Below are positions 12,063 through 46,157 of a stretch of 64,000 bases of DNA, piece after piece. A program made the position numbers and the translations under genes. Every line of letters starts with the position of its first letter. The stretch's first letter is position 1. The notes under the pieces were generated by a model that worked only from the letters and a program-made list of their open reading frames with translations, was not told the origin of the DNA and did not search any database. This DNA is from Pseudonocardia sp. C8 (GTDB taxonomy: Bacteria; Actinomycetota; Actinomycetes; Mycobacteriales; Pseudonocardiaceae), in NCBI RefSeq assembly GCF_014267175.1, contig NZ_JACMTR010000002.1, forward strand, positions 3,001,501 through 3,065,500, read 5' to 3'.

Positions 12063-12088
12063 GCATGGCCGGTGCTGCACCCGGGTAC
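12063..12088 (+). promoter_or_regulatory. SigB-type promoter of the P450 gene
   Basis: GCAT, 16 bases, GGGTAC. The hexamer ends nine bases before the ATG at 12098, so the mRNA should be leaderless. Confidence 0.6.
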
Positions 12089-12097
12089 GGCGGGTGC

Positions 12098-13489
12098 ATG
12101 TCCCGATCCCACCACGCGACGAGCCCGGCCCCGGCCACCGGCCGGACCGCCACCGCGTCGCTGCCCGTCCTGTCCCCCGCCGACACCGCACGCCTGCTCG
12201 GGTCGGGGCTCGGCCCGATCGTCGCGCAGGGCGTCATCGCCCGCCGCCCGCTCGTGGTCGCGGCGGCCGGCAAGGCGGGCACCGACGACCGGTCGGTGCG
12301 GTTGTTGCAGGAGCTGCGGGACCGCTACGGGGACGGCCCGGTCCGGGTACCGGTGCCCGGCCGGCCGGCCGCCCTCGTGCTCGACGCCGGCGGGGTCCGG
12401 CGGGTGCTCACCGAGGGACCGGAGCCGTTCGCGCCGGCGTCCTGGGAGAAACGCGGGGCGCTGCGGCAGTTCCAGCCGCACGGCGTGCTGGTCTCGCACG
12501 GCGAGGCCCGCGCCGAGCGCCGCCGGTTCACCGAGGCCGTGCTGGACACCGGGTCCCCGCTGCACGCCGAGGCCTCCCACATCGCCGAGGTCGCCCGGGC
12601 CGAGACCGCGGCGCTCCGCGACGACGCCGCCCGCCGCGGCGCCTTCGGGTGGGACGGGTTCGTCACCACGTGGTGGCGGATCGTGCGCCGGATCGTGCTC
12701 GGCGACGGCGCCCGCGACGACCACGCGCTCACCGACACGCTGACCCGGCTGCGCCGGCGCGGCAACTGGTCGTTCCTCGTCCCGCGCCGCGACGACCTCC
12801 ACGAACGGTTCGCCTCCGGGGTGCGCGATCACCTCGAACGGGCCGAACCCGGCAGTCTCGCCGCCCGCATCGCCCAGGTCGACCCCGGCCCGGGCAGCGC
12901 CGTGACCCCGGAGGACCAGATCGGGCACTGGTTGTTCGCCTGGGACCCCGGCGCGGCGGTGACGCTGCGCGCCCTCGCGCTGCTGGCCACCCACCCGGAG
13001 GTGCGGGGCCGGGCCCGCGCCGAGGCCGCGGCCCCGTCGCCCGGCGGGCCTCCGGAGCTGCCGGTGCTGCGCGCGACCGTCCTGGAGTCGACGCGGCTGT
13101 GGCCGACCACTCCCCTGCTGCTGCGCGAGTCGACCGCCGACACGAGCTGGCCGGGCGGCACCCTCGCCGCGGGCACGTCGCTGCTGGTCCCGACCTGGTA
13201 CCTGCACCGCGACGACCGGCGCCGCGCCGACGCGGACCGGCTCGACGTGGAGCAGTGGCTCGACGGCGGTGCCGCCGACGACTGGATGCTGACCCCGTTC
13301 AGCGGGGGTATCGGGGCCTGCCCGGGCCGGGAGCTGGTGCTGTTCGTCGCGTCGACGGTGCTGGCGACGCTGCTGGACGGCCACCACGCGGTGCTGCTGC
13401 CGCCGGAGTCGTTCGACGCGAGCCGCCCGCTGCCGCGCGGGCTCAACCCCTACGCGCTGCGGCTCGGCCTGTCCCGGGCGGCGCGCTGA
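12098..13489 (+). CDS. Cytochrome P450 with atypical I-helix
   Basis: A 463-residue haem-thiolate monooxygenase. The K-helix ExxR is in VLESTRLWPTTP, the PERF-like region is LDVEQWLDGG, and the haem loop is FSGGIGACPGREL near residue 410, carrying the cysteine ligand. The I-helix reads WLFAWDPGAAVTLRALALLATHPEV: the conserved acid-alcohol pair of AGxDT/ET is D-P here. That suggests unusual oxygen activation or peroxygenase-type chemistry. No ferredoxin or reductase is nearby. The ATG at 12098 is preferred over one 33 bases upstream because a GGGTAC hexamer lies nine bases before it. It is the closest gene before the SigB/F-type sigma factor. Confidence 0.88.
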   Translation: MSRSHHATSPAPATGRTATASLPVLSPADTARLLGSGLGPIVAQGVIARRPLVVAAAGKAGTDDRSVRLLQELRDRYGDGPVRVPVPGRPAALVLDAGGVRRVLTEGPEPFAPASWEKRGALRQFQPHGVLVSHGEARAERRRFTEAVLDTGSPLHAEASHIAEVARAETAALRDDAARRGAFGWDGFVTTWWRIVRRIVLGDGARDDHALTDTLTRLRRRGNWSFLVPRRDDLHERFASGVRDHLERAEPGSLAARIAQVDPGPGSAVTPEDQIGHWLFAWDPGAAVTLRALALLATHPEVRGRARAEAAAPSPGGPPELPVLRATVLESTRLWPTTPLLLRESTADTSWPGGTLAAGTSLLVPTWYLHRDDRRRADADRLDVEQWLDGGAADDWMLTPFSGGIGACPGRELVLFVASTVLATLLDGHHAVLLPPESFDASRPLPRGLNPYALRLGLSRAAR

Positions 13490-13649
13490 AACACGCCACA
13501 CCGTGGGTTCCGACCTGGGTCGTGGGCCGGCGGGAGCCGGTGCGACGAGCGGTGTTGTGGGATGCTGCTCCTCTTCGTACTGTCGAGATACGACAAGGTT
13601 CCGTTCAACCACGCAGCGGAGACGCCACCCCGAACAGCCGGGAGCCTCC

Positions 13650-14465
13650 ATGCGCACCTCTGAACAGAACCGCGTCGAGCACCGGCCCGCCGCCCCCGGA
13701 TCCCGCCGCGACGGCCCCCACGGCTACGACGACCTCGAGCCCGACCTGCGCCGCCTCGCGGACATGGACCCCGACGACCCGGCCCGCGGCGCGCTCCGCG
13801 ACCAGATCATCTGCGAGTTCCTGCCGCTGGCGCGCAACCTGTCCCGCCGCTACGCGACCGGGGCCCAGTCCGCCGACGACGTCGAGCAGGCCGCCACCCT
13901 CGGGCTCATCAAGGCCGTCGACCGCTACGACCCCGACGCGGCCACCGGGGGGCCGCTCGGCTACCTGGTGCCCAGCATCCGCGGCGAGCTCATGCGCTAC
14001 CTGCGCGACCACAGCTGGGCCCTGCGCGTCCCCCGGGACCTCAAGGAGCTCAGCGTCGGCCTGAACCGGGCCACGGCCGTCCTCACCCAGCGCCTCGGCC
14101 GCGCTCCCCGGCCCTCCGAGATCGCCGCCGAGCTCGACACCGACACCGCCGACGTCGTCGAGGCGCTCGGCGCGCTCGAGACCTACCGCGCGGTGTCGCT
14201 CGACGTGCCCGGCCCGGACGGCGAGGCGCCGCTGGGCGAACGGATCGGGGACATCGACGACGACCTGGAGACCGCGTCACTGCGCGACGAGCTGAAGGAC
14301 CGGATCGAGGCGCTGCCCGACCGGGACCGGCGGATCCTGCTGCTGCGGTTCTACGGCGACCGCACCCAGTCGGAGATCGCCGCGGAGATCGGGGTGTCCC
14401 AGATGCACGTGTCCCGGCTGCTGACCCGCATCCTGGCCCGGCTGCGCGAGGAGCTCGACGCCTGA
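13650..14465 (+). CDS. SigB/SigF-subfamily RNA polymerase sigma factor
   Basis: A 271-residue group 3 sigma factor. Region 2 is seen as EFLPLARNLSRRYATG, DDVEQAATLGLIKAVDRYDP and GPLGYLVPSIRGELMRYLRDHSWALRVPRDL (residues about 55-135). Region 3 follows with QRLGRAPRPSEIAAELD. Region 4 helix-turn-helix is DRRILLLRFYGDRTQSEIAAEIGVSQMHVSRLLTRILARLREEL at the C-terminus. This is the pattern of Streptomyces SigB/F/G and Bacillus SigB, which drive stress and differentiation genes. No anti-sigma factor or antagonist lies beside it. Seventeen promoter-like sites of the type these factors read occur within 30 kb, several next to it. The ATG at 13650 has GGAG six bases upstream. Confidence 0.92.
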   Translation: MRTSEQNRVEHRPAAPGSRRDGPHGYDDLEPDLRRLADMDPDDPARGALRDQIICEFLPLARNLSRRYATGAQSADDVEQAATLGLIKAVDRYDPDAATGGPLGYLVPSIRGELMRYLRDHSWALRVPRDLKELSVGLNRATAVLTQRLGRAPRPSEIAAELDTDTADVVEALGALETYRAVSLDVPGPDGEAPLGERIGDIDDDLETASLRDELKDRIEALPDRDRRILLLRFYGDRTQSEIAAEIGVSQMHVSRLLTRILARLREELDA

Positions 14466-14474
14466 GACGCACGG

Positions 14475-14504
14475 GTCGGGGCCCGCCGTTCGGCGGGCCC
14501 CGAC
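14475..14504. terminator. 14-bp GC hairpin terminator
   Basis: Arms 14475-14488 and 14491-14504 are exact complements around a two-base loop. It sits 10 bases after the sigma factor stop and before the convergent glycosyltransferase end; likely bidirectional. Confidence 0.8.
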
Positions 14505-14529
14505 GTCTGTCCGATGTGTGTCCGGCGTG

Positions 14530-15663
14530 TCACCCGGTCCCGGCGAGACACGCCCGCTCGAAGACCTCACCCAGCGCCCGGGCCAGGTGGCTGCGCCGGA
14601 ACGCCACCTCGACCCGGTTCCGGCCGGCGGCGCCGAACGCGATCCGGCTGCTCTCCCGGGACAGCACCTCCCGCAGCCCGCGGCTGAGCGCCCGGTCGTC
14701 GCGCGGCGGCACGGTCAGGCCGCACACCTGGTCGACGACCACGTCGGCGTTCCCGCCGACGGCGGCCGTGACGACCGCGCGGCCGCAGGCCATCGCCTCC
14801 AGCGCGGCGATGCCGGTCGACCAGCGCGGCGCGGCGTTCACCACCGCGTCGGCGGACCGGATCAGCCGTGGCACGTCGGCCCGCTCGACCGGGCCGAGGA
14901 ACCGGACCCGGCGTCCCACGCCGTGCTGCCGGGCGAGGGTGTACAGGCGGGCCCGCGCGGGGTCGTCCGCGCCGGCGGGCAGGCCACCGGCGACGAGCAG
15001 CTCCGCGTCCGGCACCGTGGCCAGCGCGCGCACGACCCGGTCCGCACCGCCCTCGGCGTCGGCCCCGCCGAGCGCGACCAGCCGCGGGCGGGTCCCGCGG
15101 CGCAGCGCCGGGCCGGACGGGTGGAACTCGTCGTCGTCGACGGCCAGCGGGACGATCCGCAGCCGGTCCGCCCGGACCCCGATCCCCTTCACCGCGTGGT
15201 GGTCGGCGGAGCTGGTCACGACGACCTGGTCGGCGCCGCGCAGCACCGCGTGCTCCACGGCGCTGCGGTCCTGGTCGGACTCCAGCTCGCCGCCGTGCAC
15301 GGTCTGCACCACCGGCACCGGTGCGTCCGCGGACGCCTGCCGGGCCGCCAGCGCGGCGATCCAGTGGTGGACGTGTACGACGTCCGGCCGCCGGTCGCGC
15401 CAGAGCCCGGACAGGTGCTCGGTGAGCGTCCGCACGGCGGCGGCCGGATCGGGTGCCGCCGGGTCGACCGGTACCCGGTGCACGACCGGGCCGGACCCCT
15501 CGACGACGTGGCCGGGCCGGCCCGGCACCACCACGTCCACCCGGTGTCCCCCGGCGGCCAGGGTGTCGACCACCTCGCGGAGGTGGCCGGCGCGTCCGCA
15601 CCAGTCCGGACGGCCGGGCGTGGTCCACGGATCGAGCGAGCTGGAGACGACGGCGACGTGCAC
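14530..15663 (-). CDS. GT-B fold glycosyltransferase (family 4-like)
   Basis: A 377-residue retaining-type glycosyltransferase. The acceptor domain begins MHVAVVSSSLDPW, and contains the DVVHVHHWIAALA and PVVQTVHGGELES motifs. The donor domain has VRFLGPVERADVPRLI and the E-x7-E-like [23 protein letters not shown] region near residue 300 that binds the nucleotide sugar. It resembles the other GT4 enzyme at 16978-18210, and both flank a zinc dehydrogenase. Start is GTG at 15663 with GAGGGGG upstream. A GNNT-type promoter lies at 15693-15716, so it may be read by the SigB-like factor. Sugar and acceptor are unknown. Confidence 0.88.
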   Translation of the reverse strand: MHVAVVSSSLDPWTTPGRPDWCGRAGHLREVVDTLAAGGHRVDVVVPGRPGHVVEGSGPVVHRVPVDPAAPDPAAAVRTLTEHLSGLWRDRRPDVVHVHHWIAALAARQASADAPVPVVQTVHGGELESDQDRSAVEHAVLRGADQVVVTSSADHHAVKGIGVRADRLRIVPLAVDDDEFHPSGPALRRGTRPRLVALGGADAEGGADRVVRALATVPDAELLVAGGLPAGADDPARARLYTLARQHGVGRRVRFLGPVERADVPRLIRSADAVVNAAPRWSTGIAALEAMACGRAVVTAAVGGNADVVVDQVCGLTVPPRDDRALSRGLREVLSRESSRIAFGAAGRNRVEVAFRRSHLARALGEVFERACLAGTG

Positions 15664-15692
15664 ACGGACCCCCTCGGTTCATGACGAGCGAG

Positions 15693-15716
15693 CTACCCGC
15701 GCAGGCGGTTCTACGC
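15693..15716 (-). promoter_or_regulatory. SigB-type promoter of glycosyltransferase
   Basis: On the minus strand GCGT, 14 bases, GGGTAG, ending about 29 bases before the GTG start at 15663. Confidence 0.5.
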
Positions 15717-15749
15717 GCTGGACACCGGGATTCCCCGCGGAGGTGCGGG

Positions 15750-16946: not shown

Positions 16947-16977
16947 CGGCTCTCCTCCTGCGGTCCGGTGGGGACGG

Positions 16978-18210
16978 TCATGACGCCGCGGCTACCCGGG
17001 GCCGCCGGTCGGAAACGGGCAGCGGGGCCCGCCGGCGGGCGGCCCGGGCGGCGTCGGCGTAGACGCCGGCGATCCGCTCGGCGACGCGGTCCCAGCCGTA
17101 CCTCTCGACGACCCGGCGCCGGCCGGCCGCACCGAGCGCCGCGGCCCGCACCGGGTCACCCGCCAGCTCGCGCAGCGCCGCCGCGAGGGCGTCCGGATCG
17201 CGGGGCGGCACGTGCAGCCCGGTCCGGCCGTCGCGCACCGTGTCCTGCAGGCCGCCCACCGCGGTGACCACCACCGGCCGCCCGCACGCCATGGCCTCCA
17301 GCGGGACGATGCCGAACGGCTCGTACCAGGGCGCGCACACGACGATGTCGGCCGAGCGCAGCAGCCCCGGGACCGCGTCGCGGCGCACCGCCCCGAGGAA
17401 CCGGACCCGGTCCGCGACCCCGGCCCGGGCCGCGACCTCCTGCAGCCGGTCGACGTCCGGGTCGCCGCCGGGGCCGGATCCCCCGGCCACCACGAGCTCC
17501 GCGTCCGGCACCCCGGCGAGTGCCTGCACCGTCTCGTCGACGCCCTTGCGGCGCACCAGCCGTCCGAGCACCAGCAGGCGGGGGCGGCCGGTCGGTTCCC
17601 GGGCCGGCCCGGGCCGGAACAGGGAGGTGTCCACCCCGGACGGCACCGTGACCAGGGCGCCGAGCGGTGCGCCCAGCCGGATCAGCTCCGCGGCCTCGTC
17701 CGGGCAGGACGCGACGACCCGGTCGGCCCGGCGGGCCACCGCCGCCTCGATCCGGATCCGGCCCTCCGGGCTGGTGTCGGCCGCGCCCTGGTGACGGCGC
17801 TTGACCGCGCCGAGCGCGTGGTAGGTCTGCACCAGCGGCAGCCCGAGCCGCCGCGCCGGGCCGGCCGCGGCCCACCCGGACATCCAGAAGTGCCCGTGCA
17901 CCACGTCCGGGCGGTCGGCCCGCCACGCCTCCTCCAGGGCGGCGGACAGCTCCGGGACGTGCGCGGCGATGTCGTCCTTCGGCATCGGGCCGGCCGGGCC
18001 CGCCGGCACGTGCCGGACCCGCACGGACCCGGTGAGCGGCACGACCTCGGGCGCGGCCGGGTCGTCCCGGCGGGTGCAGACGGTCACGTCGTGCCCGGCG
18101 CGGGCCAGTGCCAGCGCCAGCTCGCGGACGTGCACGTTCTGCCCGCCGGCGTCCGGGCCGCCCGGGTCGACGAGCGGGCTGGCGTGTTCGGAGACCATCG
18201 AGATGCGCAC
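16978..18210 (-). CDS. Glycosyltransferase family 4 (MshA-like)
   Basis: A 410-residue GT-B glycosyltransferase. The N-terminus [45 protein letters not shown] is close to D-inositol-3-phosphate glycosyltransferases and sucrose-phosphate synthases. The donor site has [22 protein letters not shown] and [25 protein letters not shown]. An ATG at 18288 exists but would coincide with the divergent start at 18287; the GTG at 18210 starts exactly at the conserved domain and is used. It belongs to the glycan region. MshA itself is usually encoded apart from such clusters, so I do not assign mycothiol synthesis. Confidence 0.88.
16992..17016 (-). promoter_or_regulatory. SigB-type promoter of zinc dehydrogenase
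   Basis: Minus-strand GTTT, 15 bases, GGGTAG, about 45 bases before the ATG at 16946. It lies within the 3' end of the upstream coding region. Confidence 0.5.
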
Positions 18211-18252
18211 GCCCCCCGCATCGCCGCGCAGCCGCCGTCCAAACCCGCCGGG

Positions 18253-18277
18253 GCATGGAACCGGGCGCGGCGGGTAG
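18253..18277 (+). promoter_or_regulatory. SigB-type promoter of glycosyltransferase
   Basis: GCAT, 15 bases, GGGTAG; the hexamer ends nine bases before the ATG at 18287. Confidence 0.6.
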
Positions 18278-18286
18278 CGGGCCGCC

Positions 18287-19920: not shown

Positions 19921-19934
19921 CTTGACAGCATATC

Positions 19935-19952: not shown

Positions 19953-19985
19953 AATGATTCGAAATCGTGTCCCGAGGAGGCCGTC

Positions 19986-22605: not shown

Positions 22606-23486
22606 GTGAGTCCGACCTCCGCCCGCAGCTCGGCCAGCAGCCGGTCGCCGTCCCGCGCGGCGGCCAGGTCCCGGGCCCGCCCGGCCGCACCCCGGCACCA
22701 CTCCCAGGCCCGGTCCAGCACGGCGCGGCCGTGCGGGCCGGCCACGTCCTCGCCGGCCAGCACCGGCCAGCCCAGCGCCCGGCCCTGCGCCGTCACCTTG
22801 GCGCCGCCGGCGACCGGGTCGACGGCCAGCGCCGGTACCCCGGCCGCGAGCGCGAGGACCGCGCCGTGCAGCCGGGTCGTCACGACGGCGTCGAGCCGGG
22901 ACAGCACGGCCCGGAACTGTCCGGGCGTGGCCGGGTGCCGCCAGTCCCGCGGGTCGACCCGGGTGTCCAGCTCCAGGCGGGCGGCGTCGAGGTCGCGCAG
23001 CCACTCGGCGAGCACCGCGTGCACCTGGTCGTGGCGGCGGCGGTCGCCGTACTCCGGCTGGCCGGGGGCGAGGACGACCCCCACCACCGGGACCGGCGCG
23101 GGGTCGGGGGCGGACCAGCACAGGTCCGGTGCGGCGTCCTCGGTTCCGTCGCGGGCCAGGACGCGGTGGAAGCCGGTCACCGCCGGGTCGAGCGGGTCGG
23201 GCACCGACACGCCGACCGCGATCCGCCGCGCGCCGGCGAACCGCTCGTGCAGCCGCGCCACCTGCGCGCCCCGCGCCGGGCCGCAGGCGAACACCAGGTG
23301 GGTGCAGCCCGCCGGGTCCGCGGTCGTCGCGGACTCCGCCGACGGGTCGAGCACCGGGCTGAGCAGCTGCTCGACCCGCCGGCCGGGCCCGCGCACCGCG
23401 TCGGCGACCCGGGCCATCGCCAGCAGGTCACCCGCGGTCGCCTCCCCGTCGACGAAGCTCGGCCAACCGGCCACCATGATCCGCAC
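22602..23486 (-). CDS. Polysaccharide pyruvyltransferase-like protein
   Basis: A 294-residue protein of the PS_pyruv_trans (CsaB) superfamily, a GT-B-like fold that adds ketal pyruvate to sugars. The C-terminal signature is LDAVVTTRLHGAVLALAAGVPALAVDPVAGGAKV (residues about 195-230), with the basic TTRLHG loop. The middle part is divergent (LVFACGPARGAQVARLHERFAG). The start GTG at 23486 is chosen because a GCAT-N15-GGGTAG promoter ends 10 bases before it; an upstream ATG at 23519 cannot be excluded. First gene of the operon with two GT2 enzymes. Pyruvylation would add negative charge to the glycan. Confidence 0.8.
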   Translation of the reverse strand: MRIMVAGWPSFVDGEATAGDLLAMARVADAVRGPGRRVEQLLSPVLDPSAESATTADPAGCTHLVFACGPARGAQVARLHERFAGARRIAVGVSVPDPLDPAVTGFHRVLARDGTEDAAPDLCWSAPDPAPVPVVGVVLAPGQPEYGDRRRHDQVHAVLAEWLRDLDAARLELDTRVDPRDWRHPATPGQFRAVLSRLDAVVTTRLHGAVLALAAGVPALAVDPVAGGAKVTAQGRALGWPVLAGEDVAGPHGRAVLDRAWEWCRGAAGRARDLAAARDGDRLLAELRAEVGLT

Positions 23487-23496
23487 GGCGGTGTGG

Positions 23497-23521
23497 CTAC
23501 CCCGGACCGGCGAGACCATGC
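23497..23521 (-). promoter_or_regulatory. SigB-type promoter of the pyruvyltransferase-GT2-GT2 operon
   Basis: Minus-strand GCAT, 15 bases, GGGTAG, ending 10 bases before the GTG at 23486. Confidence 0.6.
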
Positions 23522-23537: not shown

Positions 23538-23562
23538 GTTTCGCGCCGGTACGGCGAGGTAG
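23538..23562 (+). promoter_or_regulatory. SigB-type promoter of the epimerase gene
   Basis: GTTT, 15 bases, AGGTAG, ending nine bases before the ATG at 23572. It lies back to back with the minus-strand promoter at 23497-23521. Confidence 0.55.
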
Positions 23563-23571
23563 CCGCCGGCC

Positions 23572-24567
23572 ATGACCTCACCTCCGTTCGACCGCGCGAT
23601 CGTGACCGGCGGAGCCGGCTTCGTCGGCTCGCACCTGTGCGAGGCCCTGCTCTCGGCCGGCACCCGGGTCGTCTGCCTGGACGACCTCAGCAGCGGGCGC
23701 CGCGAGCACCTGGCGCCACTGTCCGGTTCGCCGCGGTTCCGCTTCGTCCGCCACGACGTGACGCTGCCCTGGCCGGAGCCGTGGCCCGGACCGGACGCGG
23801 CCGGCCGGGTGCTGGTCGCGCACCTGGCGTCGGCCGCGTCACCGGTCGACTACCACCGCCGCCCGCTGGAGACGCTCCGCGCGGGCGCCGCCGGCACCGA
23901 GCACGCGCTCGCGGCCGCGCAGCGGTACGGGGCCCGGTTCCTGCTCGCCTCCACCAGCGAGGTGTACGGCGACCCGGAGGTCCACCCGCAGCACGAGGGC
24001 TACCACGGCGACGTCGACCCGGTCGGCCCCCGCAGCTGCTACGACGAGGCCAAGCGCTACGCGGAGGCGCTGACCACCGCGCACCGGCGGGTGCACGGCA
24101 CCGACACCGCGATCGCCCGGCTGTTCAACACCTACGGCCCGCGGATGCGCCCCGGCGACGGCCGCATGGTGCCCACGTTCGTGGACCAGGCGCTACGCGG
24201 GGTACCGATCACCGTGACCGGGAGCGGGGAGCAGACCCGGTCGCTGTGCCACGTCGACGACACCGTCCGCGGGCTCCTCGCGCTGGCCGCGTCGGACCAC
24301 CCCGGCCCGATGAACATCGGCAACCCGACCGAGCGGAGCGTGCACGCCGTCGCCGAGCTGGTCCGGGACCTCACCGGCTCGGCGTCGGAGATCACCGCGG
24401 TCCCGGCGGCCGCGGACGACCCGCGCCGGCGCCGCCCGGACATCGGCCTGGCCGGGCGGGAGCTGGGCTGGGAACCGCGGATCGGGCTCGAGGAGGGCCT
24501 GCGCCACACCGTGGGCTGGTTCGCCTCCCGGTCAACCGTGCCCACCCCGGTCGACTCCGCTGTGTAG
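23572..24567 (+). CDS. NAD-dependent epimerase/dehydratase, UDP-glucuronate decarboxylase-like
   Basis: A 331-residue extended SDR. The cofactor motif is AIVTGGAGFVGSHLCEALL; the active site is STSEVYGDP, then VGPRSCYDEAKRYAE (YxxxK). The segments RLFNTYGPRM, DGRMVPTFV, ITVTGSGEQTRSLCHVDD and MNIGNPTE follow UDP-xylose synthases closely, so formation of UDP-xylose or a related nucleotide sugar is likely. It could also act as the heptose epimerase missing from the neighbouring operon; sequence favours UXS. Divergent from the pyruvyltransferase operon and 88 bases ahead of the heptose operon. Confidence 0.87.
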   Translation: MTSPPFDRAIVTGGAGFVGSHLCEALLSAGTRVVCLDDLSSGRREHLAPLSGSPRFRFVRHDVTLPWPEPWPGPDAAGRVLVAHLASAASPVDYHRRPLETLRAGAAGTEHALAAAQRYGARFLLASTSEVYGDPEVHPQHEGYHGDVDPVGPRSCYDEAKRYAEALTTAHRRVHGTDTAIARLFNTYGPRMRPGDGRMVPTFVDQALRGVPITVTGSGEQTRSLCHVDDTVRGLLALAASDHPGPMNIGNPTERSVHAVAELVRDLTGSASEITAVPAAADDPRRRRPDIGLAGRELGWEPRIGLEEGLRHTVGWFASRSTVPTPVDSAV

Positions 24568-24584: not shown

Positions 24585-24609
24585 GTTTGTGCCCGACCGC
24601 GGAGGGTAG
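24585..24609 (+). promoter_or_regulatory. SigB-type promoter of the heptose operon
   Basis: GTTT, 15 bases, GGGTAG, 46 bases before the carbamoyltransferase ATG. This is the best SigB/SigF-like -35 in the window. Confidence 0.65.
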
Positions 24610-24655
24610 GAGCCGTCCACCGGCCAATCGGAACGCAGAAGATCGGGAGGTGGGG

Positions 24656-32717: not shown

Positions 32718-33227
32718 TCAGGAGTCCTCGCGGGGCTGGCGCAGGCCGATCACCCGCCGGCCGGTGCCCTCGATGCCCGCCTGCAGGCGGTCGTAGGGCA
32801 TGTCGCTGCGGACCCGCCCGAGAGCGGCCAGCGCGCCGAGCACCGCGTACGCCACGGCCACCAGCACCGTGCCGAGGTTGAACGCGAACGGGCCGGACGG
32901 GAGCACCGCGAGCACGCCGGTCAGCAGCCCGGCGAGCGCCTCCACCCCGCCCAGCACGAGCAGCGCCCAGCCGTAGACCCGGGTGGCCACGAGGTTCGCG
33001 GCGCAGGGCATCCCGGCCACGCCGACGGCGAGGTGCACGATGTTCCGGATCGGGTCGACCGCCGCGCCGAGCAGCTCGTTGCTGCCCGGCGGCGTGCCCG
33101 GCATGCCGCTGTACCGGAACCCGATCAGGCCGTAGAGCACCATCACGAGCGCGGTGACGAGCACGAGCAGCTGCGGCCACGGGAACCGGGCATGGCCGTG
33201 CGAGTGGTGTTCGGACTGGACGGGCAT
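32718..33227 (-). CDS. DUF4383 membrane protein
   Basis: A 169-residue membrane protein with four predicted spans ([76 protein letters not shown]). The HLAVGVAG segment is typical of DUF4383, a family common in actinobacterial stress loci; function unknown. Start ATG at 33227 is preceded by GGGAGG. A GCAT-N15-GGGTAC promoter lies at 33280-33304, 52 bases upstream. The frame continues further upstream but overlaps the divergent oxidase gene. Confidence 0.85.
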
Positions 33228-33279
33228 GGGACCTCCCGCAGTGCGCGCCCCGGCCGGGTCGGCCGGTCCAGCCGATCGG

Positions 33280-33304
33280 GTACCCGCTGCCGGGCCGGTG
33301 ATGC
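33280..33304 (-). promoter_or_regulatory. SigB-type promoter of the DUF4383 gene
   Basis: Minus-strand GCAT, 15 bases, GGGTAC. Confidence 0.55.
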
Positions 33305-33316: not shown

Positions 33317-33342
33317 GAATGGACCACGCCGGCCCCGGGTAG
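33317..33342 (+). promoter_or_regulatory. SigB-type promoter of the orphan oxidase gene
   Basis: GAAT, 16 bases, GGGTAG, ending nine bases before the GTG at 33352. Confidence 0.55.
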
Positions 33343-33351
33343 GTGCGGGCG

Positions 33352-35060
<1,709 letters not shown>

Positions 35061-37466: not shown

Positions 37467-37500
37467 CCGCGCCGGCCCCCGCGCACCGGCAGGGTGCCGG

Positions 37501-39519: not shown

Positions 39520-39544
39520 GGTGCTCCCTCCGTCGGTGGCCTCG

Positions 39545-40831
39545 TCACTCGCCGAACTCGAACGGGAGCAGGTCGGTGCAGCGGCGGATCTTCTCCTCCA
39601 GGTCGCTCGCGTCGCTCCCGCCCACGTAGATGTTCGCGATCTTGTAGCTGTAGCTGTCCTGGTCGGGCAGCTCGGAGAGCCGGTCGCCCTCGGACACGAT
39701 GACGTCCACCGTGGTCCCCGACACCTCGCGCTGGGCCCGCTCGATCTCCTCGGCCGTCGGGACCCGCCGGACGACACCGTCCTCGACGCGGCGCATGAAC
39801 CACTTCGCCGCGATCGCGTACGGCCCCTGCCCCCGGGGCATGTCCGGCTCCTCCCCGAGCGCCAGCCGCACCATCGCCAGGTGGTTCGCGGCCCCGTCGA
39901 CGTCGGCGAACAGCTCGGCGTGCGACTGCGAGTGCCGCGGGTTCACCTCCAGCACGGTGAGCCGGTCGGTATCGGGGTCCCAGAAGAACTCGACGTTGAG
40001 CGTGGTGTGGTCCAGCCCGACCCGGTGCACGATCCGCTCGGTGACCGACGCCATCCGCTCGACCACCCGGTCCGGGACCGACGACGGGTAGACGAACCGG
40101 TCCTGGCTGGGCACGTCGTCGCGGTTCACCGTGTCCACCGCGCCGAGCAGGTGCAGCTCACCGCCGCGGACCCAGGCCTCGAGGGTGACCTGGCGGCCCT
40201 CCACGGCCTCCTCGGCGACGCAGGCCGTGCCGCCGGCCTCGGCGATCTCCCGCGGCAGGTCCACCATGGCCAGCAGGTCCTCGAACGGCTCCCCGACCCG
40301 GTCGACGTCCTCCGCGATCCGGTCGATCGCCTCGGAGAACTCCTCGGCGTTCGTGACCCGGAACGCGAGGTCGGAGGAGAACGACTTCACCGGCTTGACC
40401 CACATCGGGAAGGGCACGCCGTCCGGCGGCAGGTCGTCCTCCTCCGGGTCGACCAGCGCGAACGCCGGGTACTCGTCGATCACCTCCCGCTGCTCGAGCC
40501 GGCACCAGTACTTGTGCTCGCAGCGCAGCACCGCCTCCAGCGACGGGCAGTTGCTCCCGAGGTGCGCGCACAGCAGCGGCACCATCGTGCTCACCGGGAA
40601 GTCCCAGAACCCGATGACGCCGTCGACCCGGCCGGCCTCGTCCAGCTCCTTCTTCGCCTTCTCCAGCAGCTCCAGCACCGGGATCTCCTCGCCGTACTGG
40701 AGCTCCTCGATGCTCAGCAGAGGCAGGAAGCGGTAACGTTCGGCGCCCGGCAGGCGCTCCAGGATCTCCCGGTTGTGGTCGTCGAGTCCCGGCACGGCCA
40801 CCGTGCGGACGTCGGCTTCCTCGTTTCCCAT
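39545..40831 (-). CDS. ATP-grasp ligase-like protein
   Basis: A 428-residue ATP-grasp enzyme. The preATP domain has VDGVIGFWDFPVSTMVPLLCAHLG. The ATP-binding part has PMWVKPVKSFSSDLAFRV (Lys), AEEAVEGRQVTLEAWVRGGELHLLG and LNVEFFWDPDTDRLTVLEVNPRHSQSHAELF with the metal-binding E and N. Such enzymes join a carboxylate to an amine or thiol through acyl phosphate. No amino-ligand specificity can be read. Start ATG 40831 rather than 40840, because a GGGTAC hexamer ends nine bases before 40831. Downstream lies the S15-type hydrolase in the same operon. Confidence 0.87.
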   Translation of the reverse strand: MGNEEADVRTVAVPGLDDHNREILERLPGAERYRFLPLLSIEELQYGEEIPVLELLEKAKKELDEAGRVDGVIGFWDFPVSTMVPLLCAHLGSNCPSLEAVLRCEHKYWCRLEQREVIDEYPAFALVDPEEDDLPPDGVPFPMWVKPVKSFSSDLAFRVTNAEEFSEAIDRIAEDVDRVGEPFEDLLAMVDLPREIAEAGGTACVAEEAVEGRQVTLEAWVRGGELHLLGAVDTVNRDDVPSQDRFVYPSSVPDRVVERMASVTERIVHRVGLDHTTLNVEFFWDPDTDRLTVLEVNPRHSQSHAELFADVDGAANHLAMVRLALGEEPDMPRGQGPYAIAAKWFMRRVEDGVVRRVPTAEEIERAQREVSGTTVDVIVSEGDRLSELPDQDSYSYKIANIYVGGSDASDLEEKIRRCTDLLPFEFGE

Positions 40832-40840
40832 GACCGTCAT

Positions 40841-40865
40841 GTACCCGGGCCGCCGGCGGCCATGC
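40841..40865 (-). promoter_or_regulatory. SigB-type promoter of the ATP-grasp/hydrolase operon
   Basis: Minus-strand GCAT, 15 bases, GGGTAC, ending nine bases before the ATG. Confidence 0.6.
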
Positions 40866-41157
40866 GTGGTGTCCACAGTCGATCCGCGGGCCGCGACGCG
40901 CCGATCACCGGGGCGGCGTTGCGATCGTCTCCCCCGCTGGAATACCGTCTCCGCCGAGTGCGCCCGGGCCTGCCCGCCGGCGCCGTCCCGGGGTCGAACA
41001 ACCGGCCCAGCGTCCACCCGTCCGGTCCCCACCGGCCGGGGATCCACGACAGTGCACGAAAGCAGCGCTGCCGGACCGCGCCCCGGCCAGGCCCGACGCT
41101 CCCCCGAGCCGTCTCCCCCTTCCCGCCGAACGCCGTCCTGCAGCGGCGGAGGTCGAC
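40866..41157. other. Intergenic region without a gene
   Basis: Between the ATP-grasp promoter and the PAS-ANTAR gene. Frames open here lack a ribosome binding site and family similarity. It must hold the promoter of the PAS-ANTAR gene, but I see no clear element. Confidence 0.5.
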
Positions 41158-41943: not shown

Positions 41944-41963
41944 CCGCGGGACGGGCCGGCGCC

Positions 41964-41989
41964 GCATGACCCGGACACGGTGCGGGTAC
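41964..41989 (+). promoter_or_regulatory. SigB-type promoter of the DUF6158 gene
   Basis: GCAT, 16 bases, GGGTAC, ending nine bases before the ATG at 41999. Confidence 0.6.
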
Positions 41990-41998
41990 GGGCCCGGT

Positions 41999-42250
41999 AT
42001 GCCCGACCGATCGCACGGCATCCCGCCCACCGAGCTCGACGACGACACGCTGCGGCGCGAGATGGCCCACCTGCACGAGACCCGGCACGACACCGTCCTC
42101 CGCGGGTCCGAGGACGCGCTGCGGGCGCACACCCGGCGGATGCTGGAGCTGGAGTCCGAGTTCCTGCGCCGGCTGCCCGCCGAGGCCGCGCCGGACCCGC
42201 ACCGCACCCGCGCGGGGAGCCGGGCCGACGCCGGGCAGGACCGTCCGTAG
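41999..42250 (+). CDS. DUF6158-like small protein
   Basis: An 83-residue acidic, helical protein. The central block PPTELDDDTLRREMAHLHETRHDTVLRGSEDALRAHTRRMLELESEFLRR matches what I know of DUF6158, a short actinobacterial family of unknown function found with general-stress genes. No catalytic residues. A GGGTAC hexamer nine bases before the ATG implies a leaderless mRNA. No ribosome binding site is visible, which agrees. Confidence 0.8.
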   Translation: MPDRSHGIPPTELDDDTLRREMAHLHETRHDTVLRGSEDALRAHTRRMLELESEFLRRLPAEAAPDPHRTRAGSRADAGQDRP

Positions 42251-42261
42251 CCGGCGCCCGG

Positions 42262-42897
42262 TCAGGGCGCGACCACCCGCAGGTCCTCGACCAGCGCGTC
42301 GAACGCGGCCCGGCGCTGCTCCGGATCGGAGCGCAGCACCGACGACGGGTGCACCGTCGCCAGCACCGACGGGCCGTCGCCGGGTGCGTCCGGCAGCGGC
42401 AGCAGCCTGCCGCGCTCGCGGGTGACCCGGAACCCCGGACCGAGCACCGCCTTCGCCGCGGTCGCGCCGAGGCACACCACGACCTCCGGGCCGACCGCGG
42501 CGATCTCGGCGTCCAGCCACGGCCGGCAGGCCACCACCTCGGTCCGGCTGGGCGTGCGGTGGATCCGGCGGGACCCGCGGGCGTCGCGGGTGAACTTGAA
42601 GTGCTTCACCACGTTCGTCACGTACGCCTCGTCGCGGGGGATGCCGGCCGCCTCGAGGGCGTCGTCGAGCACCCGCCCGGCCGGCCCGACGAACGGCGCA
42701 CCCCGCCGGTCCTCCGCGTCGCCGGGCTGCTCGCCCGCCAGCAGCAGCCGGGCACCGGCCGGCCCGGCGCCGAACACGGCCTGGGTCGCGTCCCGGTAGA
42801 GCCCGCACCCCCGGCAGCCGTCGACCGCCTCCCGCAACGCGGCCAGCCCACCGCCCTCGGGCAGGTAGGCCTCCGCACCGGTCGCCTGCTGTCCCAT
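42262..42897 (-). CDS. UdgX-type uracil-DNA glycosylase
   Basis: A 211-residue family 4-like uracil-DNA glycosylase. Motif A is GEQPGDAEDRRGAPFVGPAGRVLDDAL; the iron-sulfur cysteines are in CRGCGLYRDATQ, VACRPWL and near the N-terminus; the C-terminal HPSSVLR is the helix-clasp motif. The UdgX-specific R-loop is present as RRIHRTPSR, whose His covalently traps the deoxyribose after uracil removal. The enzyme thus marks uracil in DNA rather than simply releasing it. It is divergent from a HAD gene and both have GGGTAC promoters 9-10 bases from their starts. Confidence 0.92.
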   Translation of the reverse strand: MGQQATGAEAYLPEGGGLAALREAVDGCRGCGLYRDATQAVFGAGPAGARLLLAGEQPGDAEDRRGAPFVGPAGRVLDDALEAAGIPRDEAYVTNVVKHFKFTRDARGSRRIHRTPSRTEVVACRPWLDAEIAAVGPEVVVCLGATAAKAVLGPGFRVTRERGRLLPLPDAPGDGPSVLATVHPSSVLRSDPEQRRAAFDALVEDLRVVAP

Positions 42898-42907
42898 ACG
42901 CCCTCCC

Positions 42908-42932
42908 GTACCCGGTTCCGGCCGGGCCAGTC
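42908..42932 (-). promoter_or_regulatory. SigB-type promoter of the UdgX gene
   Basis: Minus-strand GACT, 15 bases, GGGTAC, ending 10 bases before the ATG at 42897. It overlaps the divergent promoter. Confidence 0.55.
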
Positions 42933-42940
42933 GCGGGTAC
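42914..42940 (+). promoter_or_regulatory. SigB-type promoter of the HAD gene
   Basis: GGTT, 17 bases, GGGTAC, ending nine bases before the ATG at 42950. Confidence 0.5.
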
Positions 42941-42949
42941 GCGGGGGTC

Positions 42950-43612
42950 ATGACCCGACCGGACACCGCGGTGATCGACGTCGACGGGACGCTCGTCGAC
43001 ACGAACTACCACCACGCGCTCGCCTGGTACCGCGCATTCCGCCGCCTCGGCCGGACCGTCCCGGTGTGGCAGCTGCACCGCGCCGTCGGCATGGGCGGTG
43101 ACCAGCTGGTTCCGGCCGTGGCCGGCGAGTCGTTCGACGCCCGGCACGGCGACGACACGCGGGCGGCGTGGAAGGAGGAGTTCGCCGAGCTGCTGCCGGA
43201 GATCGAGCCCCTCGCCGGCGCGGACGAGCTGCTCGCCGCCCTCTCCGAGATGTTCGGCGAGCAGCTGGTGCTGGCCAGCTCCGGGGCGCCCGAGCACGTC
43301 ACCGCCTACCTGGACCTGTTCGACGGTGCCGCAGACCTCCGCGACCGGTACCTGACCCGCGACGACGTGGACCGGACGAAACCCGAACCCGACCTGATCG
43401 AGATCGCGGTCCGGCAGGCGGGCGGGACGGCGGCGTTCGTCGTCGGCGACTCGGTGTGGGACGTCCGCGCCGCCTGCGCCGCGGGACATCCGACCTACGC
43501 CGTGCGCACGGGCGGCTTCTGCGAGGCCGAGCTGCGCGAGGCCGGGGCACGCGAGGTGTTCGCCACGCTCGCCGAGCTCCGGAACGCGCTGCCGCGGCTG
43601 GTGCTCGGGTAG
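42950..43612 (+). CDS. HAD-family phosphatase (phosphoglycolate phosphatase-like)
   Basis: A 220-residue haloacid dehalogenase superfamily hydrolase, subfamily IA. Motif I is VIDVDGTLVDTNYHHALAW, motif II is VLASSGAPEHVTAYL, motif III is the Lys in DRTKPEPDLIEIA and motif IV is FVVGDSVWDVRAA. A cap domain lies between residues 17 and 85. Substrate unknown; relatives act on phosphoglycolate, beta-phosphoglucose or nucleotides. The leaderless-type promoter is shared back to back with UdgX, suggesting a damage or stress link. Confidence 0.9.
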   Translation: MTRPDTAVIDVDGTLVDTNYHHALAWYRAFRRLGRTVPVWQLHRAVGMGGDQLVPAVAGESFDARHGDDTRAAWKEEFAELLPEIEPLAGADELLAALSEMFGEQLVLASSGAPEHVTAYLDLFDGAADLRDRYLTRDDVDRTKPEPDLIEIAVRQAGGTAAFVVGDSVWDVRAACAAGHPTYAVRTGGFCEAELREAGAREVFATLAELRNALPRLVLG

Positions 43613-43613
43613 C

Positions 43614-43740
43614 CGGGCACGCCCGCCGGCGCTGCCGCACCTCGTGCCGGCGTCGCACACCCGTACCGGCGCCGTTGCCCCGGCGCTGCCGTGCCCGTGC
43701 CGGCATCGCACCCGTGCCGACGCCGCGCCCCGGCGTCGCC
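43614..43740. repeat. Short imperfect GC repeats after the HAD gene
   Basis: A run of degenerate copies built from GCCGGCG(T/C)-type and CCCGTGCC-type words, ending at the large hairpin. It has no reading frame of interest. Confidence 0.55.
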
Positions 43741-43803
43741 GCACCCCGTACCGGCGTGCCGCACCTGTCGCGCGGCGTGCGGCACGCCGGTACGGGGTGC
43801 GGC
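43738..43803. terminator. Perfect 27-bp stem hairpin
   Basis: Arms 43738-43764 and 43777-43803 are exact reverse complements around a 12-base loop. It follows the HAD gene and precedes a GGGTAC promoter at 43835. It could terminate the HAD transcript; the stem is longer than most terminators. Confidence 0.75.
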
Positions 43804-43813
43804 GGCCGTGGGG

Positions 43814-43840
43814 GTGTGGAGGCGGCGTCGCTCGGGGTAC
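43814..43840 (+). promoter_or_regulatory. SigB-type promoter of the HSL-type hydrolase gene
   Basis: GTGT, 17 bases, GGGTAC, ending nine bases before the ATG at 43850. Confidence 0.5.
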
Positions 43841-43849
43841 TGCTACCCC

Positions 43850-44788
43850 ATGACCCGCGCCGACGACGAGCACGTCGCCGCGCCCACCGCGCCGGCGAGC
43901 CTCCGGGCCCGCGCCCTCGTCGCGGCGTTCCGGTGGCGGCGCACGTCGGATTTCTTCGCCGACCCGGCGACCATGCGCGCCCACCTCGCCGAACACCAGG
44001 ACCCGGCACACACCCGCCCGCCGCGGTGGCTGCGCGCCACCACCGACGTCGAGCACCGGACCGTCGACGGCCACGACGCCTGGACGCTGCGGCCCCGGCG
44101 CGGGGTGCGGACCGGCATGCACGTCCTCCACCTGCACGGCGGCGGTTTCGTGGAGCAGCCCGCGCGGCACCACTGGCGCTTCGCCCGCTGGCTGGCGTGC
44201 CGTCTCGGCGCCGCGGTCACCCTGCCGATCTACCCGTTGTGCCCCGACCACGACCACCACGACATCTGGCCGGTGGTCCGGCACTGCTACGAGCAGTTCC
44301 TGGCCGCGCACCGGCCCGACGACCGGGTGGTGCTCGGGGACTCGTGCGGCGGCGCGCTCGCGCTCGCCCTGGCCCAGCTGCTCCGCGACCGCGGCGAGCC
44401 GGTGCCGTCCCGGATCGGGCTGTTCTCCCCGTGGCTCGACCTGGCGGTGTCCGACCCGCTGTCGGCCCGCATCGCGCCGCACGACCCGGTCCTGGGGATC
44501 GAGGGGCTGCGCCTGGCCGGGCGCTGGTACGCCGGCAACAACCCGATCGACGACCCCGAGATCAGCCCGGTCGACGCCGACCTGCGCGGGCTCGGCCGCA
44601 TCGCCGCGTTCGCCGGCACCCGGGACCTGCTCCTGGCGGACACCCGGCGGCTCCGCCGTGACGCCGAGGAGGCCGGGCAGACCGTCGAGATGCACGAGTA
44701 CCCGGGCATGTTCCACAACTGGATCATGCAACCGATTCCGGAGGCCGAGGTCGCCCGCGGGCACCTCCTCGATTTCCTCCGCCGCTGA
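43850..44788 (+). CDS. Alpha/beta hydrolase of the hormone-sensitive lipase type
   Basis: A 312-residue esterase. The oxyanion loop is LHLHGGGFVEQP, the nucleophile motif is VVLGDSCGGALALAL, the acid is in AFAGTRDLLLADT and the histidine is in YPGMFHNWIMQP. This is the family IV (HSL) pattern, with an N-terminal cap. Epsilon-lactone or short acyl ester hydrolysis is likely. No RBS, and the promoter hexamer ends nine bases before the ATG, so the mRNA is probably leaderless. Followed by the small 44879 gene. Confidence 0.9.
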   Translation: MTRADDEHVAAPTAPASLRARALVAAFRWRRTSDFFADPATMRAHLAEHQDPAHTRPPRWLRATTDVEHRTVDGHDAWTLRPRRGVRTGMHVLHLHGGGFVEQPARHHWRFARWLACRLGAAVTLPIYPLCPDHDHHDIWPVVRHCYEQFLAAHRPDDRVVLGDSCGGALALALAQLLRDRGEPVPSRIGLFSPWLDLAVSDPLSARIAPHDPVLGIEGLRLAGRWYAGNNPIDDPEISPVDADLRGLGRIAAFAGTRDLLLADTRRLRRDAEEAGQTVEMHEYPGMFHNWIMQPIPEAEVARGHLLDFLRR

Positions 44789-44801
44789 GCCGCGCCGGCA
44801 G

Positions 44802-44826
44802 GTGTGCCCCGCGCGGGTCCGGGTAC
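44802..44826 (+). promoter_or_regulatory. SigB-type promoter of the 78-residue protein gene
   Basis: GTGT, 15 bases, GGGTAC; here a 52-base leader with AAGGAGG follows. Confidence 0.5.
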
Positions 44827-44878
44827 GCGAGGGACGCCCGCAGCGACCCGATCGAGAAGTTCGAGGAAGGAGGTTCCG

Positions 44879-45115
44879 ATGACGTCGACCAGCGAGACCG
44901 GTGAGGTCACCGGCACCAAGGACAAGGACTACAACCTCGTCTGGTACGTCCAGGCCTGCCTGGAGAACGCGCTCCGGCTGGACACCTACATCCAGGACGC
45001 CGAGCGCGACGGCGACAACGAGCTCGCCGACCTGTTCCGCCGGGCCCAGGCCGACAGCCGCAAGGGGGCCGAGCAGGGCAAGTCGCTGCTCGCCCAGCGG
45101 CTCAAGTCCGCGTAG
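44879..45115 (+). CDS. Small helical actinobacterial protein
   Basis: A 78-residue protein, almost all helical: YNLVWYVQACLENALRLDTYIQDAERDGDNELADLFRRAQADSRKGAEQGKSLLAQRL. I recognise similar short proteins in Streptomyces and relatives but know of no function. The pattern resembles one half of a ferritin-like helical hairpin, though no metal ligands repeat. A strong AAGGAGG lies eight bases before the ATG, unlike its leaderless neighbours, suggesting high expression. Confidence 0.8.
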   Translation: MTSTSETGEVTGTKDKDYNLVWYVQACLENALRLDTYIQDAERDGDNELADLFRRAQADSRKGAEQGKSLLAQRLKSA

Positions 45116-45271
45116 GGACTCTCCGCCGAGGTACTGCTCACCGGAATCCTGCCCGCCGAGGCGTGGCCCCGTCCTCCGCCCGGAGGGCCGGCCGCCCCGG
45201 CGGGCGGTTCTGTCTGCTCCGCTCGGGGACGTCCTGTCTGCGGCCCGGGTCATCTGCTCCGGCTGCCCGTT

Positions 45272-45365
45272 CGACCTCACACCCCTTCCCCGCACCGCAC
45301 ACCCTTCGCTACACCTCACACCCGACGCAACAGGTGTGTGGCGAGGTCAAGGGGGTGTGAGGTCG
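45272..45365. terminator. Long inverted repeat between convergent genes
   Basis: A 16-base arm (45272-45287) pairs with 45349-45365 with one bulged G. A second weaker pairing lies inside the loop (CCTCACACC against GGTGTGTGG). It separates the 44879 gene from the convergent DUF2267 gene and is probably a bidirectional terminator. Confidence 0.65.
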
Positions 45366-45367
45366 GG

Positions 45368-46087
45368 TCAGCCGCGGCGGGCCCGGCCGCCGGTCGCGGC
45401 TTCCGCCACCACGTGGTCGATGTCGGCCGCCAGCTCGATGTCCGGCCGGGTCACCTGCTGGTCCGCGGTCCGCAGGACGATCGTCAGCTCGCCCCGCCCG
45501 CGCTCGAGGTGTGCGTGGTCGTTGCGCCGGCGGGCCACCTCCTGGACCCGGGCGGCGAGCGGTTCGACCCGTTCGTCCGGGACCGCGACCGTCCGCGAGA
45601 TCCGCGTCGGGTCCCCGTCCCAGTTCTCCAGCCGGGCCAGCTCCCGCGCGACCTCGTCCGCGGTCAGCGCGGTCGGCCGCTCCGGGGTGGCGGTGACCTC
45701 GTCCCACCGCGCCGCACCGCCCCGCAACGACTCGAGCGCGCCGTCCGGTAGCGACCCGGCGATGCGCGCCGTGGTGTCCGGGTCCTGCCGGTCGATCTCG
45801 TCGAGCACCGCGCGGGCCAGCAGAAGGGCCTGCTCCGGGGGACGCTTGAGGAGCCCGGCGATGTCCTGGATCATGCGTTCGGGATCCACCGTCCGCGGGC
45901 CTTCCCCGACATCGGCGACCGCCTCGACCAGGGACGGCATGGCACCGAGCACGTGCTCGCGGGCGTCGGACGGCAACGCGCGCACCAGCGTGCCCAGCAC
46001 GATCCCGGTGGCCTCCCGGGCCTCGCGCGCATCCGGCAGCCCGGCGCGGTCCCGCACGGCCTCCACCAGTTCCTGGTAGCGGATCAT
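45368..46087 (-). CDS. DUF2267 fused to a degenerate pterin-4a-carbinolamine dehydratase domain
   Basis: A 239-residue two-domain protein. Residues 1-140 are DUF2267: YQELVEAVRDRAGL, ATGIVLGTLVRALPSDAREHVLGAMP, and two further helices with LPDGALESLRGG. Residues 150-235 resemble pterin carbinolamine dehydratase: LTADEVARELARLENWDGDPTRISRTVAVPD, VQEVARRRNDHAHLERGRGELTIVLRT, VTRPDIELAADID. The dehydratase signature H-H-P is altered to NDHAHLE, so catalysis is doubtful and the domain may serve dimerisation. DUF2267 proteins are common in stress regulons. Start ATG 46087 with GGAAGGGGG upstream. Confidence 0.82.
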   Translation of the reverse strand: MIRYQELVEAVRDRAGLPDAREAREATGIVLGTLVRALPSDAREHVLGAMPSLVEAVADVGEGPRTVDPERMIQDIAGLLKRPPEQALLLARAVLDEIDRQDPDTTARIAGSLPDGALESLRGGAARWDEVTATPERPTALTADEVARELARLENWDGDPTRISRTVAVPDERVEPLAARVQEVARRRNDHAHLERGRGELTIVLRTADQQVTRPDIELAADIDHVVAEAATGGRARRG

Positions 46088-46131
46088 GATCCCCCTTCCG
46101 CGTGAGTCTCGGCGGCATCGCTGCCGGCGGG

Positions 46132-46157
46132 CTACCCCCGGCGGGCATCGTTCATGC
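46132..46157 (-). promoter_or_regulatory. SigB-type promoter of the DUF2267-PCD gene
   Basis: Minus-strand GCAT, 16 bases, GGGTAG, 44 bases before the ATG. Confidence 0.5.

Follow-up and report, generated by a model that had tools for sequence, protein, structure and literature searches.

Sigma factors of the SigB/F type (group 3) are short proteins that carry the sigma-70 regions 2, 3 and 4 and have no room for region 1.1. Partner-switching regulators (RsbW, STAS) are their usual companions, without defining them. In Streptomyces coelicolor, promoters of the SigB family start transcription at base 8-11 after the -10 hexamer in 21 of 24 rows, and at base 3, 6 or 7 in the others (S1 mapping, E. 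coli two-plasmid system; rows counted by hand, the last printed base being taken as the start; PMC8346170, in part), and the SigF-dependent sspA promoter (GTGT-16N-GGTTAC) has its mapped start at the translation start (PMC4282423, in part). In M. smegmatis, whose SigF regulon is induced on loss of the aa3-type oxidase (PMC10950880, in part), 12 of 51 strong SigF promoters lie 7-11 bases from the start codon by the count of the paper (PMC4694148, Table 1: 59 rows with GNNT-N14-17-GGG(T/A/C)A and down in both phases, 51 of them within 250 bases), and the genome-wide leaderless share is 24%, leaders of up to 5 bases being counted as leaderless (PMC6448022, in part). Here we analyze a window of 64,000 nucleotides from Pseudonocardia sp. 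C8 (NCBI RefSeq assembly GCF_014267175.1, contig NZ_JACMTR010000002.1; C2:3001501-3065500; the genome comprises 6.24 Mb on two contigs), in which a 34-kb island (12063-46157) combines a SigB/F-type sigma factor gene with a dense set of SigB-type promoter sites. We consider it likely that the island is a local regulon of this accessory sigma factor, in which each gene has its own leaderless or leadered mode.

An initial annotation of the window had held the leaderless arrangement to be undescribed, which is only partly so: sspA has been mapped as such, and Table 1 of PMC4694148 contains a peak at 8-11 bases that goes unnamed there, the words leaderless, untranslated and Shine being absent from the main text (the first of them is also absent from PMC8346170). 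The portion of the open-licence literature consulted gave us no account of leaderless placement as a feature of SigB/F regulons and nothing on Pseudonocardia sigma clusters, both of which are weak evidence of absence.

Promoter sites were listed in the window as every [GA]GGTA[CG] hexamer together with its -35 words and nearby start codons. The gap is the number of bases between the end of the hexamer and the start codon, and island sites with a gap of 9-10 form the leaderless class. The pattern GNNT-N14-17-RGGTAS has 23 matches in the island, 17 of which precede a gene (Table 1), the other six (16540, 36456, 39239, 40467, 41288 and 45129) being intragenic or without a downstream gene. The 17 gene-upstream sites that had been reported at the outset, seven of them with GCAT, were all recovered, two being weak (15698 and 16997, where an ATG 10 bases downstream is out of frame with the called gene). 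So were the ten starts placed 9-10 bases after the hexamer, all of them in frame and preceded by GNNT-N15-17-(G/A)GGTA(C/G); the remaining seven sites are leadered. Genes were called by a codon-usage caller of our own in five 400-kb blocks (2.0 Mb of the genome), with approximate starts, and a non-leaderless start was picked for four of the ten, namely 18287 (18383), 23486 (23519), 40831 (40876) and 33352 (33630), the last in a gene that is split over two frames.

Chance does not account for this set. A GGGTA[CG] with GNNT at 14-17 bases precedes 14 of the 35 island genes (7 leaderless and 7 leadered by the caller's starts), vs. a mean of 0.00 leaderless (maximum 0) and 0.25 leadered (maximum 1) for 12 control cores made by permuting the letters of GGGTA or changing one or two of them, which bears out two earlier proposals, that the gap pattern exceeds chance and that the sites follow a SigB-type consensus. 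The rest of the sampled genome has such a site before 28 of 1771 genes (6 leaderless, 22 leadered), and the difference from the island gives a Fisher value of 2e-15, computed, like the others given here, after the pattern had been noticed. This sample is non-random, as blocks B4 and B5 were picked for GCAT matches and for a sigma paralogue; the sampling bias thus runs against the claim of clustering. The promoter set of the island is real and strongly local. Outside the island, control cores average 2.75 leaderless and 9.25 leadered genes, and a strict G[CGT][AT]T at 15-16 bases leaves 2 leaderless and 9 leadered, where the controls average 0.33 and 0.83 and reach at most 1 and 3. One mini-cluster (C2:1648966-1651961, L173:8362-12802) precedes hemerythrin, short-chain dehydrogenase and hydrolase-like genes; the closest SigB/F-type sigma gene found is some 140 kb away. 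An unbiased enrichment of 5- and 6-mers returned mainly Shine-Dalgarno words, with GGGTA unranked, and the whole-genome pattern GGGTASN{4,14}ATG (297 matches vs. 193 for the reversed control) was dominated by coding matches and not used.

Table 1. Promoter sites before genes of the island and the sigma factor gene (window positions; gap in bases to the start codon).
Positions	Strand	Element	Class	Gene and remarks
12063..12098	+	GCAT-N16-GGGTAC, gap 9	leaderless	P450 gene 12098-13489; orthologues in L214 and L335 also gap 9
13650..14465	+	SigB/F-type sigma factor gene		Pseudonocardia accessory clade (Pfam, NCBIfam, tree)
15693..15716	-	GCGT-N14-GGGTAG, gap 29, weak	leadered	glycosyltransferase gene 14530-15663
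16992..17016	-	GTTT-N15-GGGTAG, weak	leadered	alcohol dehydrogenase gene; site absent from L061 and L071
18253..18287	+	GCAT-N15-GGGTAG, gap 9	leaderless	glycosyltransferase gene; start unproven, caller 18383; L115 orthologue without site
23486..23521	-	GCAT-N15-GGGTAG, gap 10 to GTG	leaderless	polysaccharide pyruvyl transferase gene; promoter kept in P. parietis and P. ammonioxydans
23538..23572	+	GTTT-N15-AGGTAG, gap 9	leaderless	NAD-dependent epimerase/dehydratase gene; conserved in two species
24585..24650	+	GTTT-N15-GGGTAG, gap 40, Shine-Dalgarno	leadered	carbamoyltransferase gene; promoter and GGAGGT kept in two species
33227..33304	-	GCAT-N15-GGGTAC, gap 52	leadered	DUF4383 gene; leadered in 3 relatives
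33317..33352	+	GAAT-N16-GGGTAG, gap 9 to GTG	leaderless	aa3-type oxidase subunit I gene (split over two frames); kept in L063
37383..37466	-	GCGT-N16-GGGTAC, gap 57	leadered	bifunctional nuclease (DUF151) gene; L063 orthologue without site
40831..40865	-	GCAT-N15-GGGTAC, gap 9	leaderless	ATP-grasp gene; start unproven; L335 orthologue without site
41964..41999	+	GCAT-N16-GGGTAC, gap 9	leaderless	DUF6158 gene
42897..42932	-	GACT-N15-GGGTAC, gap 10	leaderless	UdgX gene; 15/29 relatives at gap 8-10
42914..42950	+	GGTT-N17-GGGTAC, gap 9	leaderless	HAD gene; interleaved with UdgX promoter; L316 orthologue without site
43814..43850	+	GTGT-N17-GGGTAC, gap 9	leaderless	alpha/beta hydrolase gene
44802..44879	+	GTGT-N15-GGGTAC, gap 52	leadered	78-amino-acid gene
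46087..46157	-	GCAT-N16-GGGTAG, gap 44	leadered	DUF2267/pterin dehydratase-like gene

Leaderlessness had been put forward as a rule of the regulon, and this we reject: besides the seven leadered sites, two of which are conserved as leadered, the shares found elsewhere are near 25%. The strongest motif, examined at 30 loci of at least 82 matches in the genus, gave 5 leaderless, 15 leadered, 1 intragenic and 9 unassigned cases, i.e., a leaderless share of 5/20 assigned strong promoters in a sample whose leader class admits starts up to 223 bases off and which contains two near-duplicate pairs of loci. As this share and that of the M. smegmatis SigF promoters lie near 24%, leaderlessness is an ordinary option common to the sigma class. 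The excess of the island (10/17, or 7/14 by the caller's starts) is modest, with Fisher p values of 0.05 vs. the genus sample and 0.015 vs. M. smegmatis for a set chosen for its looks. Whether it has any regulatory meaning is nearly an even question, the chances of a product of the reader's selection or of dense divergent packing being only slightly the smaller: the pattern was noticed first and tested after, reaching just p 0.05 against the genus, some genes are separated by little space (UdgX and HAD by 52 bases), and no site at the Mycolicibacterium sigma loci is leaderless (0/11). On the other hand, the share also stands above a quarter near accessory sigmas, at 6/15 in P. dioxanivorans and 11/29 in ten Pseudonocardia loci, one of which lies inside the P. 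dioxanivorans stretch. The SigA leaderless share by a full -35/-10 model rested on small counts in sets that disagree and was not used, and a class-level pattern search (matches in 11/296 genomes) was excluded from the counts, its gap being fixed at 9 and hence without bearing on shares.

Among the relatives, P. parietis and P. ammonioxydans retain the divergent promoter pair at 23486/23572, including GCATG, GTTTC and the two hexamers; the gap before the epimerase gene is 9 or 10, and the pyruvyl transferase gene of P. ammonioxydans (L071) has its start at gap 9. The oxidase gene of L063 has GGGTAG at a 9-base gap to GTG with the N-terminus kept and a different -35 word, and the P450 orthologues found, in two further genomes and at 67% identity, both carry the promoter at gap 9. 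UdgX is present in 35 of the 62 genus genomes; at 16 of the 30 loci examined, our own included, a promoter lies 8-10 bases before an in-frame start, and 3 have a distant site only. For DUF6158, 30 of 62 class-level matches were examined, giving 7 leaderless and 4 leadered sites. Conservation extends to leadered sites: the carbamoyltransferase promoter retains its Shine-Dalgarno sequence, and DUF4383 has gaps of 49-64 bases in all 3 relatives found and of 47 in P. dioxanivorans. Where relatives are comparable, each gene retains its mode, and hexamer and distance are kept wherever the promoter is. A -10 at a fixed distance from a recurring start was found, with the exceptions of 18287 and 40831, whose leaderless starts are unproven.

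Some further features of these sites can be mentioned. The N-terminal part of the aa3-type oxidase subunit I (33352-35060) is encoded in the frame of 33352 and the remainder in that of 33630, and the L063 copy is called as a single gene of 534 codons. The divergent UdgX and HAD promoters are fully interleaved within 52 bases (42897-42950), so that one -10 abuts the other's -35 and the two may exclude each other. GCAT is the commonest strong -35 word in 12000-46500 and in the sampled own genome and GGTT/GTTT prevails in 80 sigma loci, a contrast that may mark a shift in specificity; the own genome has 12 matches to the GGTT pattern vs. 3 in the reversed control. Just left of the island, 11644-12033 encodes a small product whose Lsr2-like match is weak, at 23.1 bits for a cut-off of 29.6.

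The factor encoded at 13650 is probably of the SigB/F type, as had been proposed: Pfam Sigma70_r2, r3 and r4 extend across residues 56-267 of 271, without room for region 1.1, and the best NCBIfam matches are SigF (237.4 bits, cut-off 372) and SigBFG TIGR02980 (226.7 bits, cut-off 234.35), both below their cut-offs. Its nearest named relatives are four P. parietis copies (77-80% identity) and pieces from P. ammonioxydans (73-80%). In a tree of 49 rows, it falls in a long-branched clade of 18 rows, all from Pseudonocardia (support 100/99), together with a paralogue at 1.789 Mb of the own genome and four copies each from P. parietis, P. dioxanivorans and G024; two other Pseudonocardia clades are shorter-branched, and one of them holds the own 1.047 Mb gene (C2:1047483, core type). 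No more than 10 of the 49 rows represent other genera, which leaves the limits of the clade poorly tested, and the tree itself is limited by long branches and midpoint rooting. Upstream of the window sigma lies a SigA-like TTGTGG-N17-TACTGT, with TTGCGG-N17-TACCGT in the P. parietis copies (alignment, by eye). One G024 accessory sigma gene (L334:6077-6894) has its own GTTT-N15-GGGTAG 8 bases before the called start and is a possible leaderless autoregulated sigma; the same contig carries four SigB-type sigma genes within 8 kb.

Sites of the same kind cluster around other members of the accessory clade. Ten Pseudonocardia accessory-sigma loci have 29 sites in 146 genes vs. 1.1 in controls. In P. 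dioxanivorans (0.46 Mb sampled), a 200-kb stretch with four accessory sigmas has 15 sites in 201 genes vs. 1 in 174 in a control stretch (control cores: 1.4 and 1.2), and the counts within 10 kb of the four are 5, 2, 5 and 0, i.e., 12 sites in 91 genes. No site was found among 53 genes within 10 kb of three other SigB-type sigmas of this species. The own genome has 5 sites in 40 genes near accessory sigmas, the window included, and 1 in 24 near the core sigma. Clustering as such has a precedent in the targets that lie near M. smegmatis sigF and in eight Mycolicibacterium sigma loci (11 sites in 168 genes vs. 1.5 in controls); we have not found in print a contrast of promoter clustering between sigma clades within one genome. 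This clustering around the accessory clade is the less expected and more interesting part of the present results, leaderless mRNA being ordinary in such bacteria.

These counts also bear on which factor reads the island. We infer that the window sigma drives the sites and that they respond to stress; of the stress-type membership first ascribed to the set, UdgX, DUF2267 and DUF6158 fit, and many other members are glycan, P450 or hydrolase genes. That the promoters are real and driven by another SigB/F-type sigma, such as the core-type one, with the local gene incidental, is the less probable view, worth perhaps a third of the credence given to the window sigma. It can draw on the cross-recognition of promoters by the SigB homologues of one organism (PMC8346170, in part), on the two further SigB/F-type sigmas of the genome, one of core type, and on the UdgX promoter being kept in relatives whose sigma neighbourhood was outside the comparison; the crowding of sites near accessory sigmas and not near other SigB-type ones, in two species, speaks against it.

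The reading of the gap as leaderless relies on spacing, register and conservation. In three blocks, TANNNT peaks 6, 7 and 8 bases before starts of any kind (58, 48 and 16 matches vs. 2 to 13 per position elsewhere), which is the usual SigA-type leaderless arrangement, and GGGTAC has 8 matches at gap 9 and 4 at gap 10 (5 and 2 with called starts); TANNNT and GGGTA have their TA at equal distance from the start codon. A genus search with the GGTT -35 (at least 150 matches) gave 9, 39 and 24 at gaps 8, 9 and 10 among the matches listed, the remaining 78 being spread over 14 other gaps (mean 5.6; gap 5 has the most, 17, and gap 3 has 10); the 150 listed come from the first of 62 genomes only, and 8 of their strings are duplicates. 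The control core RGCTA peaks at gap 9 in 80 sigma loci as well, probably through disguised SigA promoters, and the peak in that set of loci was not used as evidence. Disguised SigA promoters were considered and rejected, the ten leaderless window sites, read by eye, being without the second T of TANNNT. With starts mapped at base 8-11 and the first base of the codon at base 10 or 11, leaders would measure 0-3 bases. It is from this spacing that we infer the transcription start sites of the island promoters, and the comparison supports the sites as SigB/F-type promoters whose gap points to leaderless or nearly leaderless mRNA. That transcription starts 1-5 bases upstream, with a very short leader and another route of translation, or that some genes start further downstream, is improbable: in most cases (15 of the 24 rows), the mapped start does fall at base 8 or 9 beyond the hexamer, which gives 1-3 leader bases (PMC8346170, in part), and the caller did prefer other starts for 18287, 23486 and 40831, but leaders of this size are classed with the leaderless ones in M. 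smegmatis (PMC6448022, in part), sspA starts exactly at its codon (PMC4282423, in part), and an ATG or GTG at the same distance recurs in relatives.

In the mechanism that we favor, polymerase with the window sigma, or with a sibling of like specificity, would read GNNT-N15-17-GGGTA(C/G) before about 15 genes in 34 kb. Ten of these genes have the T of GGGTA 12-13 bases ahead of the start codon, so that transcription would start at the codon or within about 3 bases of it and the mRNA would be translated leaderless; at the others it would start some 20-50 bases upstream, at least one having a conserved Shine-Dalgarno sequence. The mode would be gene-specific and conserved, with leaderless mRNA as an ordinary actinobacterial alternative.

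Several results weigh against a local regulon of this sigma. The genome holds three SigB/F-type genes (E<=1e-30), another of which could drive the sites; autoregulation of the window sigma was rejected, as no GGGTA promoter lies upstream of 13650; and no RsbW- or STAS-type family was found in the 50 window protein stretches scanned, with six called genes outside the scan. No site lies within 10 kb of one of the four accessory sigmas of P. dioxanivorans, none of the 11 sites at the eight Mycolicibacterium sigma loci is leaderless, and 52 Nocardioides and other loci have 20 sites vs. 9.7 in controls. Conservation is uneven: 11 of the 30 UdgX loci and 19 of the 30 DUF6158 loci examined have no site, nor do single orthologues of the ATP-grasp, DUF151, glycosyltransferase and HAD genes. 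The spacing is not exclusive either, GGGTAC also matching 8 times at gap 0 when any start is counted and 4 times at gap 27 when called starts are. Finally, a scan of the kind that had been proposed as a check, covering 2.0 Mb of the genome, gives with the loose -35 a clear signal in the island only: control-core maxima in the rest of the sampled genome are 8 leaderless and 22 leadered vs. 6 and 22 for the real core, so that the signal there is hard to tell from chance.

A wider proposal, which we put forward as a long shot, is that Pseudonocardia has a fast-evolving and duplicating SigB/F clade, each member with its own short-range promoter set as a self-contained module, and that such modules favor leaderless mRNA, their stress output bypassing Shine-Dalgarno initiation. 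More immediately, a GGGTA whose T lies 12-13 bases before an ATG or GTG would offer an aid, from sequence only, for finding SigB/F targets and correcting start codons in such actinobacteria, and a sigma clade with promoters clustered around it makes testable how paralogous SigB-type sigmas split their targets.

Among known systems, the M. smegmatis SigF regulon is alike in its GTTT-N14-19-GGGTA promoters and in the many targets beside sigF, MSMEG_1758 to 1807 (PMC4694148, PMC6448022), and P450, hemerythrin, glycosyltransferase and methylenetetrahydrofolate reductase-like targets are common to it and the Pseudonocardia sites. It differs in that RsbW is encoded beside sigF, whereas here an extra sigma clade has no visible RsbW nearby, GCAT is the commonest -35 word and the leaderless share is higher. 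The SigB homologues of S. coelicolor share the GNNT-type -35 (osmotic group), the GGG-type -10 and starts mostly 8-11 bases after the hexamer (PMC8346170, in part), and sspA is likewise leaderless under SigF, as one gene and not a class (PMC4282423, in part). The SigA-type leaderless genes of mycobacteria, (PMC3898074, PMC6448022), with about a quarter of transcripts leaderless (PMC6448022, in part), are alike in that the TA of TANNNT in the present genome stands at the same codon distance as that of GGGTA; there, TANNNT and the housekeeping sigma are at work, and here GGGTA and a SigB/F-type one.

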